This document shows positions 3,746-47,291 of a DNA stretch of 64,000 bases, one piece after another (positions within the stretch are counted from its first letter, which is position 1; every line of letters starts with the position of its first letter). The stretch is from assembly GCA_030765065.1 (NCBI GenBank), contig CM060980.1, forward strand, positions 60,372,364-60,436,363. Direction: 5' to 3'. The translations under genes were made by a program, and so were the position numbers. Under the pieces are notes generated by a model. It saw only the letters and a program-made list of their open reading frames with translations. It searched no databases and was not told the origin of the DNA. Source of the stretch: Deroplatys truncata (lineage: Eukaryota > Arthropoda > Insecta > Mantodea > Mantidae).

Positions 3746-3959
3746 GTAGGATGTGTTAATCGGAGGGAGACACCCCGCACACTGCGGCCATATTTATCTA
3801 TTTCGGGAGACAGGAATGAGGTGAACAAGTCTTAGGAGTCCCAAATCCGCAGGCAGACAGGCTCACAGAGATCCGCAGAATTCTCTAATATTTCCAGTTG
3901 AACACCCGAGCACTATTCGGCGAAAATCTTAAGAGGGCGACTTAGCAACCCTAACAGGC

Positions 3960-6616: not shown

Positions 6617-6620
6617 ATTC
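6617..6620. repeat. Target-site duplication ATTC, left
   Basis: ATTC directly precedes the left LTR and is repeated at 10,801-10,804 directly after the right LTR. A 4-bp duplication fits Gypsy/Ty3-type integration. Confidence 0.8.
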
Positions 6621-7594
6621 TGAAGTAACATTATTTGTATATGTTTGTATTTGTTAGCCCCACATTTGGGAGCCAATTTGCGATGGTAAATTTATAATGT
6701 TATTTGTGTATCTGTTTACTCAACATGGTGAAGCCATCTTGCGACGTGATTCATTTGTTAGGTTTGTTAGCTCCATCTGGTGTTAGCAATTTGCGGCAGT
6801 ATTAGTTTTTGTTTGAAAGAATGCTACTGTTATTTTATTTAATTTTGGTTCTCTGTCCTCCGGCTAGCTATTATCCTTTGGTCGAGCACTTCTCTTTATA
6901 CAGGTTGTGTAAACGGAAAGGAATCTTTTATCCAAAGATAACACTGATGAAGAAATTTGTTTTACACTTTTATTGTCGAACACGTTAACTATCACATTTA
7001 CACATTGATCTTGACACTCGCCAAACTGAAACTGTTGTAATAACTTCATTACTGATCACTCTTAATTCGCGCACTTCAACTTTTTGTATAATTAACTTTA
7101 CAACATTTAAGATTTTTCATAACTCTGTTACGCGTAACCTGCAAATTGATATCCGACGTGTGCCGTACAAATATTTTCGACGGACTGAAGCACTTTACCT
7201 CTAACCTAGCTTCTATTTATACTCATACACCCCGATATGCCTAAAGATTATAACTGAGCAGCAATTGGCTAATAAAACGCGCCAACATTAGCGTCTATTT
7301 TTATATCCAATGAAAATTATGAATACATATGCTCTAGGGAAATGTTCCAGAAGATTCTAAAGGAAAACGCGCCAACATTACGTAACTTCCTCGTTTCCAA
7401 TAATGATAAACAGCTCACCCCCTCGCTGCATTATTGCACGCTATTATTGTCAGTTTCAGTAAGGTATTAAAAACTTACTTCCCAACAATAATTACAATCA
7501 ACAAACTTCTCAAATCAATGTCACATAATAATGCATATTCATACTATAATCACTCTTTACATTTAAATAATTTGTGATACAAATTACTGCATCA
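6621..7594 (-). repeat. 3' LTR of element F
   Basis: 974 bp. It differs from the other LTR by six substitutions, at about 7,037, 7,201, 7,260, 7,280, 7,323 and 7,508. Its last 170 bp in element orientation contain primer-site-like motifs (6,657-6,675 and more decayed ones near 6,729 and 6,787), so duplicated primer sites have become part of the LTR. Confidence 0.92.
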
Positions 7595-8305
7595 TATGCC
7601 CCACTAGAAACATAATTATAAATATTTACAACTTGTTTGGAAATTTTATAATTGGGTTTTTAGTCTCCTAAATCTTGGAACACACGCTATTTATCACTTT
7701 CACTTAACACTTCACACGTATTTAACACACGACATATGTTTTTCCTTTATCTCGCCACTATTTACTGGCTCTTGTTTCATGTTTTTAGACATTAATTTAA
7801 CATTACAAAAAAAAATTTTATAGCAAATACTGTACCCTGAATTATTTAGTTACTGTTACAAAATTATTTACTTTCTTATATTGTTGACAACAATTTGTGC
7901 ATTTAAGAATTTTTGTAATTACTATACATATTTACTAAAATATTCACCCTCTACACAAATATATTTACATCTCTTAAATCTAGACACTGTTTCACATTTT
8001 CGTTTGCTACATAAGTATTTGTTTTTAATTATTTTACCCCATTTTTGTTGTTTTGTACATTATGTTCAGAATACTCTTGGAATTATATTTACGTACTTTT
8101 ACTTTAATATAACATTATACTTCATTTCAAATGCTGTTACAGTTACTAAGAATTTAATTTTTTTTAAAAAAACATTTCTCTTTTTTTTATAATTTATTTC
8201 TCTTTTCACATGACATATATAAATAGTTAACCCTCTTACTTTCCAATACATTGCTCTGCAGGTCATCTTTAACTATCCAGCATTTACTTTTTATGTCATT
8301 GCTAT
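7595..8305 (-). other. Non-coding 3' part of element F interior
   Basis: About 710 bp of AT-rich sequence between the Gag stop and the 3' LTR. No pol domain can be read in any frame. The 103-codon plus-strand frame at 7881-8192 is low-complexity and antisense to the element, and I do not regard it as a gene. Confidence 0.6.
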
Positions 8306-9373
8306 TTACCCTCCTGGATCAAATTGTGTGTGGCTAAACATTACTCGTAGCCGTATCCTAACCTTCCAAAATTTGTTCATGAATAACCTCTTGTATTCAT
8401 ATGAAATTTCGTCCCATGATATAATTTGAAAACAATCTAAAGTTTCCTGAATTACACATCTTTTACCAACTGTCATTTTCAATTCTTCTGCTATCTTTTT
8501 AATTTGAGAGTCCTCTGACAAGTCTGTAATAAACTGTACTGGATTGGAGTTTTCAATTTGAACATCTTGGTACTTGTTAATTTCAGAAGTTAGCTTTTGA
8601 TTATTTACAGGCAAAACTTTAACTTCTTCGTAGAATTTATTTCTGTGCGTTTCTGATTCTTTCTGTATTTCTGATATCTCCCCTCTGAAATTAACTTGCG
8701 CTTGATTCACATCTACATTCATAACCTCTTTCATCTCTCTTATCTCACTTGAAATAATACTCATTCTACTACCTGACTCTGCACATTCTACATCAACATG
8801 TTCTATTTTATTATTAACCTCACTTTTTTGGTTATATATTTCCCTGCTTATGTCTAACATTTGCTTTGAAACTTCCCCTATCTCATTTGCTATCATTTCC
8901 TGATTTTCATTTCTCATTCTCATCATACTACTATCTAGCTCCATGAATTTCTTTTCAATTTCTTCCCTGTTTTGATCTATTTTCTTTTCTAATTTCTCAT
9001 TACTTTTACCAATATCTTGAGTTAGTTTTTCTAATTTCTCATTAGTCTTACCAATATCTTCCCCTAATTTCTCATTATTCTGTTCCATACTCTGAGTCAA
9101 TTTTTGTTCTAATTTCTCAATATTCTTATTTACTGTATCGCCAAAATTTCTCATCATTTCCATCATCATACTAGCATCAAAATGAACATTTCCTGCTATT
9201 CTATTCTGACTTTCTTCACTAACATTTCCTCCCTCAAATTCTACATTGTTTGAGCTATATTCTGTAACATGTATTGAATTACAGCTAACTGTTACATTAT
9301 CCCCTTCCATTATTGTTTCTTCAATATTATTAGTAGCCATTGTTTTCTTTATCCTACCGCTCCTAAGGTACAT
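8306..9373 (-). CDS. Truncated Gag-like coiled-coil protein of element F
   Basis: 355 codons from an ATG at 9373. Residues 3-7 read LRSGR, a basic start of the kind found in insect Gypsy Gag proteins. Residues about 81-250 are strongly charged and heptad-like, rich in E, K, N, I and L. They include two near-identical 14-residue units around IGKTNEKLEK (107-116) and IGKSNEKLEK (121-130), copied in the DNA as a 42-bp repeat. Residues 275-282 (NSNPVQFI) and 320-336 (W...FMNKFW) resemble the first part of a Gypsy capsid domain. The frame then ends 19 residues later. The second half of capsid and any zinc knuckle are missing, so an internal deletion probably joined gag to downstream sequence near 8,370. 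The frame is intact and could supply a structural or packaging protein; that role is inference. Confidence 0.8.
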   Translation of the reverse strand: MYLRSGRIKKTMATNNIEETIMEGDNVTVSCNSIHVTEYSSNNVEFEGGNVSEESQNRIAGNVHFDASMMMEMMRNFGDTVNKNIEKLEQKLTQSMEQNNEKLGEDIGKTNEKLEKLTQDIGKSNEKLEKKIDQNREEIEKKFMELDSSMMRMRNENQEMIANEIGEVSKQMLDISREIYNQKSEVNNKIEHVDVECAESGSRMSIISSEIREMKEVMNVDVNQAQVNFRGEISEIQKESETHRNKFYEEVKVLPVNNQKLTSEINKYQDVQIENSNPVQFITDLSEDSQIKKIAEELKMTVGKRCVIQETLDCFQIISWDEISYEYKRLFMNKFWKVRIRLRVMFSHTQFDPGG

Positions 9374-9826
9374 TTAAATTTTTTTACCTTTTTTTTGGAA
9401 TTAACATAACACTTTTCTAACCTTTCTGATGCTGTCTGTTGCTGTTACTTTGGTGTCCAGCTTTCTGCCCCTCTCTCCTAGATTATATGTCGCTTCTGCG
9501 TTGTATTATGATGAATCTGCGTCGTCTCGATGTTTTTGTGTCCACTCATCCGCGTCGTCTGTCGTTCTTCTAGTTGTTTCTGGAATCTGCGTCTTGTAGT
9601 TCAGTTCACTACTCCATTCGCTTCACGTCCTGGTTCCTTCGCCCCTTCCTGGTTATTTCACTCCTTTCCTGGTCACTGTGCCCCACGTTCTGGGTGCCAA
9701 TTTGAAGTATTATTATTAATGTTATTTATTTAACATTATTGTAGCCCCACGTTGTGGTAGCCAATTTGAAGTAACATTATTTGTAATATCTATTTATTGA
9801 TTGAGCCCCACGTTTGGGAGCCAATT
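9374..9826 (-). promoter_or_regulatory. Element F leader with three tandem primer binding sites
   Basis: In plus-strand orientation the motif GCCCCACGTT.GG..GCCA occurs at 9,680-9,699, 9,744-9,763 and 9,805-9,823. Each is followed by ATTTGAAGTA. On the element strand this reads TTCA AAT TGGC...ACGTGGGGC, that is the LTR end, a 3-bp spacer, then a primer binding site. The motif is close to GCCCCACGTTGGGCGCCA, the 3' end of eukaryotic tRNA-Lys(CUU) with CCA. The copy at 9,805-9,823 sits 3 bp from the LTR and is the one expected to have primed this copy. The remaining leader before the Gag ATG is unremarkable. Confidence 0.75.
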
Positions 9827-10800
9827 TGAAGTAACATTATTTGTATATGTTTGTATTTGTTAGCCCCACATTTGGGAGCCAATTTGCGATGGTAAATTTA
9901 TAATGTTATTTGTGTATCTGTTTACTCAACATGGTGAAGCCATCTTGCGACGTGATTCATTTGTTAGGTTTGTTAGCTCCATCTGGTGTTAGCAATTTGC
10001 GGCAGTATTAGTTTTTGTTTGAAAGAATGCTACTGTTATTTTATTTAATTTTGGTTCTCTGTCCTCCGGCTAGCTATTATCCTTTGGTCGAGCACTTCTC
10101 TTTATACAGGTTGTGTAAACGGAAAGGAATCTTTTATCCAAAGATAACACTGATGAAGAAATTTGTTTTACACTTTTATTGTCGAACACGTTAACTATCA
10201 CATTTACACATTGATCTTGACACTCGCCAAACTGAAACTGTTATAATAACTTCATTACTGATCACTCTTAATTCGCGCACTTCAACTTTTTGTATAATTA
10301 ACTTTACAACATTTAAGATTTTTCATAACTCTGTTACGCGTAACCTGCAAATTGATATCCGACGTGTGCCGTACAAATATTTTCGACGGACTGAAGCACT
10401 TTACCTTTAACCTAGCTTCTATTTATACTCATACACCCCGATATGCCTAAAGATTATAACTGAGCTGCAATTGGCTAATAAAACGAGCCAACATTAGCGT
10501 CTATTTTTATATCCAATGAAAATTATGAGTACATATGCTCTAGGGAAATGTTCCAGAAGATTCTAAAGGAAAACGCGCCAACATTACGTAACTTCCTCGT
10601 TTCCAATAATGATAAACAGCTCACCCCCTCGCTGCATTATTGCACGCTATTATTGTCAGTTTCAGTAAGGTATTAAAAACTTACTTCCCAACAATAATTA
10701 CAATCAACAAACATCTCAAATCAATGTCACATAATAATGCATATTCATACTATAATCACTCTTTACATTTAAATAATTTGTGATACAAATTACTGCATCA
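9827..10800 (-). repeat. 5' LTR of element F
   Basis: 974 bp, bounded on the element's outer side by TGATGCAG (10,800 inward) and followed by the ATTC duplication at 10,801-10,804. It includes a primer-site-like motif at 9,863-9,881 inside the LTR, matching 6,657-6,675 in the other LTR. Confidence 0.92.
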
Positions 10801-10804
10801 ATTC

Positions 10805-13989: not shown

Positions 13990-14755
13990 CATCCTAACTC
14001 GGTCCCATTATCTTCGTGAGTAAAATGTCAACAACCCAACTCATTCCGGTAGGATATCCTGTCAACAACCTAACTCTGTCCCGTAGGATATTCTGTCAAC
14101 AACCTAACTCAGTCCCGTAGGATATTCTGTCAACAACCTAACTCAGTCCCGTAAGATATTCTGTCAACAACCTAACTCAGTCCCGTAGGATATTCTGTCA
14201 ACAACCTAACTCAGTCCCGTAAGATATCCTGTCAACAACCTAACTCATTTCGGTAGGATATCTTGTCAACAACCTAACTCAGTCCCGTAGGATATACTGC
14301 CAACAACCTAACTCAGTCCCGTAGGATATCCTGTCAACAACCCAACTCATTCCCGTAGCATATACCGTCAACAACCTAACTTAGTGCCGTAGCATATACT
14401 GTCAACAACCTAACTCAGTCCCGTAGCATGTACTGTCAACAACCTAACTCAGTGCCGTAGCATATACCGTCAACACCCTAACTCAGTTCCGTAGGATATA
14501 CCGTCAACAACCTAACTCAGTCCCGTAGCATATACCGTCAACAACCTAACTCAGTCCTTATCTTCGTGAGTAAAATGTCAACAACCTAACTCAGTCCCGT
14601 AGCATATACCGTCAACAACCTAACTCAGTCCTTATCTTCGTGAGTAAAATGTCAACAACCTAACTCAGTCCTTATCTTCGTGAGTAAAATGTCAACAACC
14701 TAACTTAGTCCCGTAGCATATACCGTCAATAACCTAACTCAGTCCCTAGCATATA
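13990..14755. repeat. Minisatellite, 34-bp and 40-bp units, about 21 copies
   Basis: A tandem array whose 34-bp unit is built around GTCAACAACCTAACTCAGTC followed by CCGTAG.ATAT. I could line up about 21 consecutive units from 14,026, plus a partial one before. Early units end in GGATATTC or GGATATCC, later ones in GCATATAC. Four units, at the very start and near the end, carry a different 3' half (TTATCTTCGTGAGTAAAA) and are 40 bp long. The array has no reading frame constraint and no dyad in the unit, so it is neither a CRISPR nor a coding repeat. Confidence 0.95.
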
Positions 14756-37645: not shown

Positions 37646-38522
37646 TGAGGCAGTATTTTAACACTAAAATTATATCAGTCTGATTATATAGTATAAAATA
37701 TAATTACAGCCCGCCTTAAAGCAATATGTGTTTGTAATAATATATAAAAGTATTTAACAGTTATTGTATTAATGTTTATATTATTATGTACATGTATAAT
37801 AATGTTACGTGAATGTATTACGTAATTTAACAATGTAGCAGCTGTGAAAATAGAAGTCGAAAGTTGCTAACAATGAGGTAACAATGAGGTAACCTTGAGG
37901 CAATAATGAATTGGAAATGTTAATAATGCCACTAATAATTCGTGGAACAATAATGTTATATTTAAAATATTTTTAATAAATAGCTAATCAACAACTAGAA
38001 AAACCTTAAGTTAAATAAAAGTATTCTATTGGAGTATAATTAGCCAATCGGGAGACTTGAAATTGAGAAAATTATAATTTTAAGCGGTAGACGGCAGTTG
38101 CTAGAAGGCAGCGTTCCAAGCAGTTCGCTCGGTACGAAATCAGTGTAAGAGATATAAAATTCATTACAGTGTGATTAATATAAATTTTACGTGTTAAAAA
38201 GTACAATTAACAAAAATCTCACAGTTAGATATATCTGTGAAGTGTTATTTAATCGCGTGAAAGCTTAATAAAACGAAGTTAAATACCATTATAAGTTGTG
38301 TAAGCCTTCATTCTTTAGCCGCTCCAACCCTGCTAAGAGATACGTGTTTCTATAAATTACTACAGATGCACCCGAGGCAAACATAAATATATAATATTTA
38401 AAGAAACATTAAAATACAAAGTTGACTTTTTTAAACGTTGGGGCGAAGGCCACCGGAAAGTTAACGTGGGGGTGAAGGACACCGAAAACTTAGTATCATA
38501 CGTGGGGCATCAATCTGCTTCA
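37646..38522 (+). mobile_element. Solo LTR D
   Basis: 877 bp starting TGAGGCAGTATTTTAACAC and ending CAATCTGCTTCA. Flanking AATC (37,642-37,645) and AATT (38,523-38,526) would be a duplication with one later change. It is homologous to A, B, C and E throughout, with two copies of the GGGGCGAAGGCCACCGGAAAG unit near the end and a remnant ACGTGGGGC of a primer-site motif just inside the border. It could also be one LTR of an element whose interior has been lost. Confidence 0.72.
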
Positions 38523-38852
38523 AATTGTACTGGGTTTAAGAGGCTAAGGAAACTCCGGTATTGATAGGGGAACATAAATAATTTAAAGAGTAAACTGGAA
38601 TGAGTAATAATTATTCAACAATCATATGAATACAATTTGTAAAAATTTCACATATATAAAATATAGTGAGGTGTGTATAACACTAAAAGTTATTTGTCTG
38701 TGATCTGCGCAGTCAACTATTTGGAGATAAATACTAAAATGACCTGTAAACTATATAGAAATGAGAATGCAGTAATATTAATTTAAATGTGAAAGCATCG
38801 TATTCATATTCCTTACATTTCGTAATAATTTGAGCTAGCAAAGGACATATAG

Positions 38853-46323: not shown

Positions 46324-47291
46324 TGAAAGAAGGTTGTAGCCCCACGTCTAGGTGCCAATTTGAAGATAAGTTTACTTTGAGGGAGTTGTATTGTAGTTCA
46401 ACCTTTGGGGAGCCAAACTTGAAGTAGTTGCAACCACGTGCGATACAAAGTTTCCGGTGGCCTTCGCCCCAACGTTCACTTGCCGGTGGCCTTTGCCCCA
46501 AGTTCACTTTCCGGTAGCCTTCGCCCCAACGTTTAGGAATCAACTTTGTATTTTAATGTTTCTTTAAATATTATATATGTTTATGTTTGCCTCGGCTGCG
46601 TCAGTATTAATTTGTAGAAACATGTACCTCTTAGCAGGGTGTGATGCAGCTAAAGAATGTAGGCTTACACAAATTATAATTTTTACTTCACTCCTTTTAT
46701 TAATCCTTCACACGATTAAGTAACGTCACTAATATAGAGAGCTATGAGATTATTTATTAATTACTTGCACTTTTTAACAGTAAACTTTATAATATTCTCC
46801 CGTGATGAATTTTATGTCGCACACTGAATACATACCGAGCGAACTGCACAGGAACGTTGCCTTATAGCGACTGGCGTTTACCGCTTAAATTTGTAAATGT
46901 TTCTATTTCAAGGCTCTGATTGGCTAATCCTACTCCATAGAATACTTTTATTTGACTTTCAGCTTTTCTGGTTGTTTATTGGCCACTTATAAACTGTTTT
47001 AAATATTAAATTATTCTTCCAAGAATTACTAGTAGCATTATTAAGCTTTCCAATTCATATTGCCTCAAGGTTACCTCTTTGTTATCTAATTGTTAGCAAC
47101 ATTATTAAATTACCTAATACATTCACATAACATTATTATACATGTAGACAATAATATAAACATATACAATGACTGTAATATACACTTTTTATATATTGTA
47201 GTATACACATATTGCTTTAAGGCGGGCAGTTATTATATTTGATATTATATAATTAGACTGAAATCATTTAAGTGTTAAAAATACTGCCTCA
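46324..47291 (-). mobile_element. Solo LTR E with internal primer-site repeats
   Basis: 968 bp flanked by AATT at 46,320-46,323 and 47,292-47,295. On the minus strand it starts TGAGGCAGTATTTTTAACAC and ends CCTTCTTTCA. It is homologous to LTRs A-D. Inside its end are primer-site-like motifs at 46,339-46,357 (GCCCCACGTCTAGGTGCCA) and about 46,402-46,416, each followed by T..GAAG. Three tandem GGCCTTCGCCCCAACGTT units follow at about 46,448-46,533. Because the AATT also occurs as the LTR-to-primer spacer, the duplication is weaker evidence here than for A or B. Confidence 0.78.

Follow-up and report, generated by a model that had tools for sequence, protein, structure and literature searches.

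The length and end of a long terminal repeat (LTR) are normally treated as set by a single primer binding site (PBS). In a stretch of 64,000 nucleotides from the mantis Deroplatys truncata (the window), an LTR element carries several such sites in tandem where LTR and leader meet, which raises the question of whether one of them works and the rest are by-products, or whether any of them can prime and thereby decide where the LTR ends. Our analysis indicates that the array is very probably a series of complete LTR termini, any of which may prime, the unit that is used setting the LTR end.

The element in the window and its primer-site array

The element lies on the minus strand, and its two LTRs (974 bp each, with 6 substitutions in the 974 positions of their alignment) start with TG, end with CA and are flanked by a target-site duplication (TSD); long direct repeats and a TSD are the marks of an LTR retrotransposon. 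Read in the sense direction, the 5' LTR terminus ..TTACTTCA is followed by AAT and then by TGGCTCCCAAACGTGGGGC. The 3-bp spacer and the minus-strand orientation proposed in an earlier reading of the sequence alone were therefore correct, given the TG..CA boundaries and the ATTC duplication. The conserved AGTGGGGCATA at the polypurine-tract position is just weakly purine-rich, and TTTCTAGTGGGGCATA precedes, with at most one change, the listed downstream LTRs of relatives, a nested LTR in L020 excepted. The main features of the copy are as follows.

6617-6620, no strand: left copy of the TSD ATTC, flanking the element
6621-7594, minus strand: 3' LTR, aligned to 9827-10800
7595-7610, minus strand: TTTCTAGTGGGGCATA, at the polypurine-tract position directly upstream of the 3' LTR, kept before the downstream LTRs of relatives
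8306-9373, minus strand: internal ORF of 355 aa, coiled-coil-like, the sole long internal ORF
9824-9826, minus strand: 3-nt spacer from the LTR end (CA) to the PBS, read from the sequence
9827-10800, minus strand: 5' LTR, aligned to 6621-7594, TG..CA, with TSD
10801-10804, no strand: right copy of the TSD ATTC, flanking the element

A Pfam search with the 355-aa ORF gave no match above the curated cut-off, and a Gag identity, which we had considered for it, found no supported match. The gag and pol of an autonomous element were not both found in this copy, which has no pol; we filed it as non-autonomous because its single long ORF (355 aa) has no Pfam match above the cut-off. Among plasmid sequences, none was similar to the window sequence.

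Tandem Repeats Finder reports a repeat at 9680-9886 with a period of 64, 3.4 copies and a score of 241, and a pattern scan places the same sites within the LTR element, in agreement with the claim of repeated primer sites at the LTR/leader junction. Each unit resembles a complete LTR terminus, that is, ..CA, AAT, a PBS and an AT-rich spacer of about 26-50 nt. Sites and remnants of the array, with edits counted against the tRNA-Lys(CUU) complement, are listed below.

9680-9699, minus strand: leader PBS no. 3, form C, 20 nt, the last of the array, 3 edits
9744-9763, minus strand: leader PBS no. 2, form B, 20 nt, 3 edits
9805-9823, minus strand: PBS at the LTR end, form A, TGGCTCCCAAACGTGGGGC, 2 edits
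9863-9881, minus strand: PBS within the 5' LTR, form A', 3 edits
6657-6675, minus strand: counterpart of the form A' PBS within the 3' LTR, from the pattern scan
9976-9994, minus strand: fossil unit deeper in the U5 of the 5' LTR, score 16, reached by 0 of 2000 Markov sequences
6770-6788, minus strand: counterpart of the fossil unit in the 3' LTR, same as 9976-9994
9919-9949, minus strand: second, doubtful fossil unit, marginal, its score being reached by 104 of 2000 Markov sequences

The sequence-only reading had given one literal motif for four sites. It fits exactly at 9805 alone, whereas the sites at 9680 and 9744 carry one extra central base and are for that reason missing from an ungapped scan; with up to 3 mismatches, that scan found four places (6657, 9805, 9863 and 46339, the last belonging to another element of the window) against 0.01 per window expected by chance. 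At 9863 the motif is followed by ATTTGCGATG and not by ATTTGAAGTA as had been stated, and of the weaker versions reported inside the LTR the one at 9976-9994 is significant, whereas the one around 9919-9949 is marginal. A tRNA-complementary PBS is thus present in the window copy, although an imperfect one with 2 edits at the LTR end; since no site is exact (2-3 edits each), the priming site of this copy can be read only from its LTR end, at 9805. Two other accounts of the imperfect forms were considered and rejected. An exact match to some other tRNA fails, by reasoning, on the centre, which exceeds by 1-2 nt what a normal acceptor stem allows. Selection for a self-hairpin of the unit was suggested by forms A and C (-6.3 and -7.0 kcal/mol, near the strong end of random centres), and we do not claim it, considering that the exact form also reaches -6.3 kcal/mol and that B and D reach -4.0 and -3.7.

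The choice of tRNA-Lys(CUU) as the matching tRNA held, as genes with such a 3' end are present in this genome. A 21-nt pattern of its 3' end, with at most 2 mismatches, has 1073 genome matches and its reversed control 0. ARAGORN predicted tRNA-Lys(CUU) genes in 2 of 15 exact-match loci, tRNA-Met in 1 (L052) and no tRNA gene in 12; the scanned loci with the exact 3'-end pattern and no tRNA gene fall in the series L042-L054. Both positive loci sit in one tandem array with a 144-bp period (G000:C9:191136769-191158089), in which tRNA-Lys(UUU) and tRNA-Asn genes are interspersed, according to ARAGORN on two 3-kb loci.

LTR ends among the relatives

Relatives were gathered in two sets. For set 1, 361 bp around the LTR end were searched against the animal's own 4.29-Gb genome, which gave 42 matches; 33 stretches, holding 40 of the 41 other matches, were taken together with the window copy. 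Twelve of the 33 had no usable LTR pair (L009, L011, L014, L020, L021, L026, L031, L035, L036, L038, L039 and L040), and L032 and L033, which form one tandem locus where one further match was left out, were also dropped. The 20 resolvable copies comprise 15 whose two LTR arrays agree and 5 discordant ones (L012, L016, L018, L019 and L041), judged by eye and left out of the test. L013, L027 and L037 were added by hand, and L012 and L018, called automatically with weak end matches, were moved by hand to the discordant group; L030, with an equally weak end match, was retained because a short deletion in its last spacer accounts for the mismatch. The tandem locus L024 was read from its first LTR to its last. 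The caller demanded AATTGG after the LTR end of the 5' copy, so set 1 is no independent test of the unit boundary. Because the first query contained the LTR end itself, a second search was made with internal sequence. It found 40 places including the window, and small pieces were examined for 20 of the 39 others (the best 24 minus four in two tandem loci). The LTR end in set 2 is the end of LTR homology alone, taken without TSDs, and units were read by eye. Arrays agreed in 12 of these 20 copies and were discordant in 6 (C14_186, C7_158, C3_115, C11_183, C16_665 and C13_40); the pieces of the remaining 2 (C7_200 and C16_376) hold no 3' LTR.

Arrays in the relatives contain 1-6 PBS units, spaced mostly 48-71 bp from start to start. 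A single primer site in the relatives would have spoken against the sequence-only reading; in the 5' arrays of the internally selected set 2, a single clear unit was found in 8 of 20 and two or more in 12 of 20. Together with the variation of LTR ends, these multi-unit arrays do not fit a model with one PBS and one fixed U5 end. The 5' end of the LTR is nearly constant, being TGATGCAG with few exceptions among the listed LTRs, which were found with the head of the window's LTR. The 3' termini vary (TTACTTCA, CCGCCGCA, CACTCGCA, CACCTGCA, CCACTACA and others), and in set 1 they are bounded by 4-bp TSDs: 13 of the 15 concordant copies have an exact one, L022 matches at 3 of 4 positions, and L027 has a truncated 5' LTR start. 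The LTR end falls at units 1 to 5 of arrays of 3 to 6, from the first unit through the last, in copies whose LTRs diverge by 0.1-3.2%. In 12 of 12 set-2 copies, homology between the LTRs ends 0-3 nt beyond the CA in front of AAT-TGG or of what is left of that sequence. When family members are collected, their units mapped and their ends compared, the LTR ends, set by TSDs (set 1) or by homology (set 2), thus lie at different units. The proposal that several usable sites give differing LTR ends therefore stands at the level of the family; the window copy itself has imperfect sites only.

We consider it most improbable that an unrelated satellite, or recombination after insertion, gave rise to the array, with LTR ends altered once the element had integrated. 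Recombination does occur, as the tandem loci L024, L033 and L038 and the discordant arrays attest (11 of 38 resolvable copies, with 5 of 20 from set 1 and 6 of 18 from set 2). However, exact 4-bp TSDs lie at the shifted ends in 13 of 15 set-1 copies, the 5' end of the LTR hardly varies, and both LTRs of young copies have the same end. The satellite reading, which had been named as a possible refutation, was rejected because the units coincide with TSD-bounded LTR ends in the relatives.

Spacer modules and the exact tRNA complement

The spacers between units can be followed from copy to copy. Module U1 (about 36 nt) lies within the LTR in 8 of 10 set-1 carriers, the exceptions being L029 and L037, where it belongs to the leader; modules U2, U3 and U4, matched with a tolerance of up to 5 edits, likewise turn up both before and after the LTR end, and a fifth module was found in LTRs only. 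Since the side on which a homologous module lies, LTR or leader, differs between copies, the LTR end has moved relative to the sequence. In 122 units from 32 copies, the imperfect forms A-D track the spacer downstream of them (1.24 bits versus 0.11 when shuffled, reached in 0 of 5000 shuffles) and, more weakly, the upstream end (0.215 versus 0.07 bits, 14 of 5000, or 240 of 5000 without the leader unit). The exact PBS form is found with all four downstream spacer classes (6, 5, 4 and 2 units). The simplest reading, by analogy with retroviruses, would be that use of a unit for priming is what gives it the exact form.

The exact complement of tRNA-Lys(CUU), TGGCGCCCAACGTGGGGC, is concentrated at the LTR end. 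In set 1 the LTR-end unit is exact in 9 of 15 copies, compared with 3 of 48 other units, which take in one fossil unit of L010 (Fisher 3.4e-5); when one unit per copy was drawn at random, at least 9 exact units were reached in 9 of 200000 trials, with 2.8 expected. The within-array test of set 2 covers 7 multi-unit copies, the five single-unit copies (one exact, four form C) having been left out. Here the strict comparison, 3 of 7 against 2 of 13 other units, is not significant alone (p = 0.21), and 18-mers within 2 substitutions of the tRNA complement, a criterion chosen after the data were seen, were found at 6 of 7 LTR ends against 3 of 13 elsewhere (p = 0.012). For both sets together, exact units make up 12 of 22 at the LTR end and 5 of 61 among the others (p = 2e-5), and the 18-mer class 16 of 22 and 8 of 61 (p = 5e-7; within-copy permutation 0 of 500000). 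All these p values are guides, because copies and units share ancestry. The hand choices in set 1 do not drive the enrichment: without them, the 14 automatic calls give 7 of 14 versus 2 of 44 (p = 3e-4), and set 1 minus L030 plus L012 and L018 gives p = 2e-4.

The association is not complete. Five of the 22 multi-unit copies (the window copy, L013, L015, L017 and L034) retain an imperfect form at the LTR end, as would be expected if either strand of a heteroduplex can be inherited and also if no tRNA copying occurs. Among the concordant single-unit copies of set 2, 4 of 5 retain form C (TGGCACCCAGAACGTGGGGC) and not the exact complement; with so few copies this is still compatible with even odds of inheriting either strand, and it is not what routine overwriting predicts. 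The LTR ends of L025 and C13_187 carry partly changed PBS forms, which would fit partial repair or inheritance from a heteroduplex. At L072 (C3_115), complementarity to the tRNA continues past the 18 nt of an exact PBS into the TCGAA that comes next, which gives the impression that plus-strand synthesis overran its usual stop.

Two alternatives bear on this pattern. The exact site could simply be the strongest primer, so that the LTR end marks the best site and overwriting by the tRNA is not needed. We regard this as possible, if on the doubtful side: the predicted duplex of PBS and tRNA is -41.8 kcal/mol for the exact form versus -29.9 to -32.2 for forms A, B and C, and exact sites away from the LTR end, seen in L022, L025, L027, C7_215 and C3_79.94, are in keeping with it, but it leaves unexplained why the exact form occurs in four spacer backgrounds while the imperfect ones are tied to one or two, and why partly changed forms stand at the LTR ends of L025 and C13_187. 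Judging by these predicted energies, preference for exact sites could nevertheless explain part of the association without overwriting. The other alternative is that a single primer site works in each subfamily, whose LTR end would be fixed, the remaining units being dead by-products of duplication and the differences among copies marking subfamilies. Such an explanation gains from the single-unit copies (8 of the 20 set-2 5' arrays, form C being common to 4 of the 5 concordant ones) and from the relatedness of the copies, by which exact sites could be inherited; we consider it unlikely even so, since homologous modules fall inside the LTR in one copy and outside it in another, none of the four spacer backgrounds lacks exact sites, and LTR ends are spread over the array, first unit to last, in 15 copies with LTR divergence of 0.1-3.2%.

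A proposed movable LTR terminus and known systems

What we favour, with some reserve, is a lineage that has no fixed LTR terminus and instead maintains a self-renewing array of interchangeable termini, each an att end with a primer site; one unit would be picked per cycle and stamped by the tRNA, units would be gained and lost by transfer, U5 would grow from leftovers, and young copies would record their own priming. In each cycle of reverse transcription the tRNA may prime at any unit of the array. The primed unit would fix the end of U5, and the LTR of the resulting copy would therefore take in every unit upstream of the primed one. When plus-strand synthesis copies the 3' end of the tRNA, the exact complement of the tRNA can replace the primed unit, and a young copy would thereby record the unit that was used, while units left behind in U5 would decay. 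Strand transfer depends on the PBS, of which the array has several, and would in this way shuffle units and make or remove them: if the PBS end copied from the tRNA pairs, at the second-strand step, with a different PBS of the array, a unit may be duplicated or deleted, and discordant arrays within a copy may come from transfer between two co-packaged RNAs (template switching). L027 has one spacer twice, before and after the LTR end, and a two-unit block occurs twice, with one difference, in the 5' array of L041. The loci L024, L033 and L038 are tandem LTR-internal-LTR-internal-LTR arrangements with near-identical repeats, probably products of LTR recombination or of recent duplication.

Engineered HIV-1 vectors with two PBSs, attributed to Voronin and Pathak (2004), reportedly show frequent initiation at both, to go by the title of that work. 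They are alike in having more than one PBS per RNA; the vectors are artificial and have two sites, whereas this element is natural, with 1-6 sites in many copies, each site with its own LTR-type end. HIV-1 isolates of the MAL type have a natural partial duplication of the PBS, a 23-nt insertion downstream of it; the passage of PMC3185550 on this insertion resembles our case in that the duplication is natural, and differs in that the duplication is partial and the passage gives no alternative start or LTR end. In HIV and SIV, according to PMC4549124, the PBS of the progeny stems from the tRNA copy or from the genome, and it may therefore reveal which primer was used. There, one PBS is served by several tRNAs, whereas here one tRNA has several PBSs, and the PBS would consequently tell which site was used. 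The yeast elements Ty1 and Ty3 are also LTR retrotransposons with an unusual PBS architecture, a bipartite one, reportedly not perpetuated from the tRNA in the portion of PMC5371799 that deals with it, unlike the element studied here, in which the pattern points to tRNA copying; because of this report, not every LTR element can be taken to copy its PBS from the tRNA. None of the listed titles and abstracts of open-licence PMC papers (in one search "PBS" mostly meant something else) describes a natural array of complete primer sites by which LTR ends are shifted, and a term search of PMC7472051 for multiple PBSs yielded no passage. The element would follow the known cycle of LTR retrotransposons, with an interchangeable terminus as the proposed variation.

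An LTR end that seems to be chosen at each insertion offers natural evidence on inheritance of the PBS from the tRNA, on priming by imperfect sites and on the gain of U5 sequence. Programs that assume one PBS and one LTR length when finding LTRs may split such families. The genome has CAAAT directly before the exact PBS at 3892 places (0 for the reversed control), and 19 of about 100 listed places lie, by eye, within 130 bp of another, which suggests that the tandem-terminus design may be common in this genome. At L083 (C16_376; C16:376340250-376340710, minus strand), which has a single form-C primer site, an open frame of 153 aa lies downstream of the region matching the internal ORF. By eye it resembles the start of a Gypsy reverse transcriptase, and the locus is a possible autonomous relative; sequence searches of Pfam and PDB with this frame gave no reverse transcriptase match. 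The window also contains a second LTR-like family (46336-46533 in minus sense and 38430-38530 in plus sense), with a PBS-like unit at 46339-46357 after ..TCTTCA/AAT and 28-29-bp repeats with ACGTGGGG-like cores, perhaps the same PBS-array design in decay. A minisatellite with a 34-bp period and 21 copies occupies 14026-14755 of the window.
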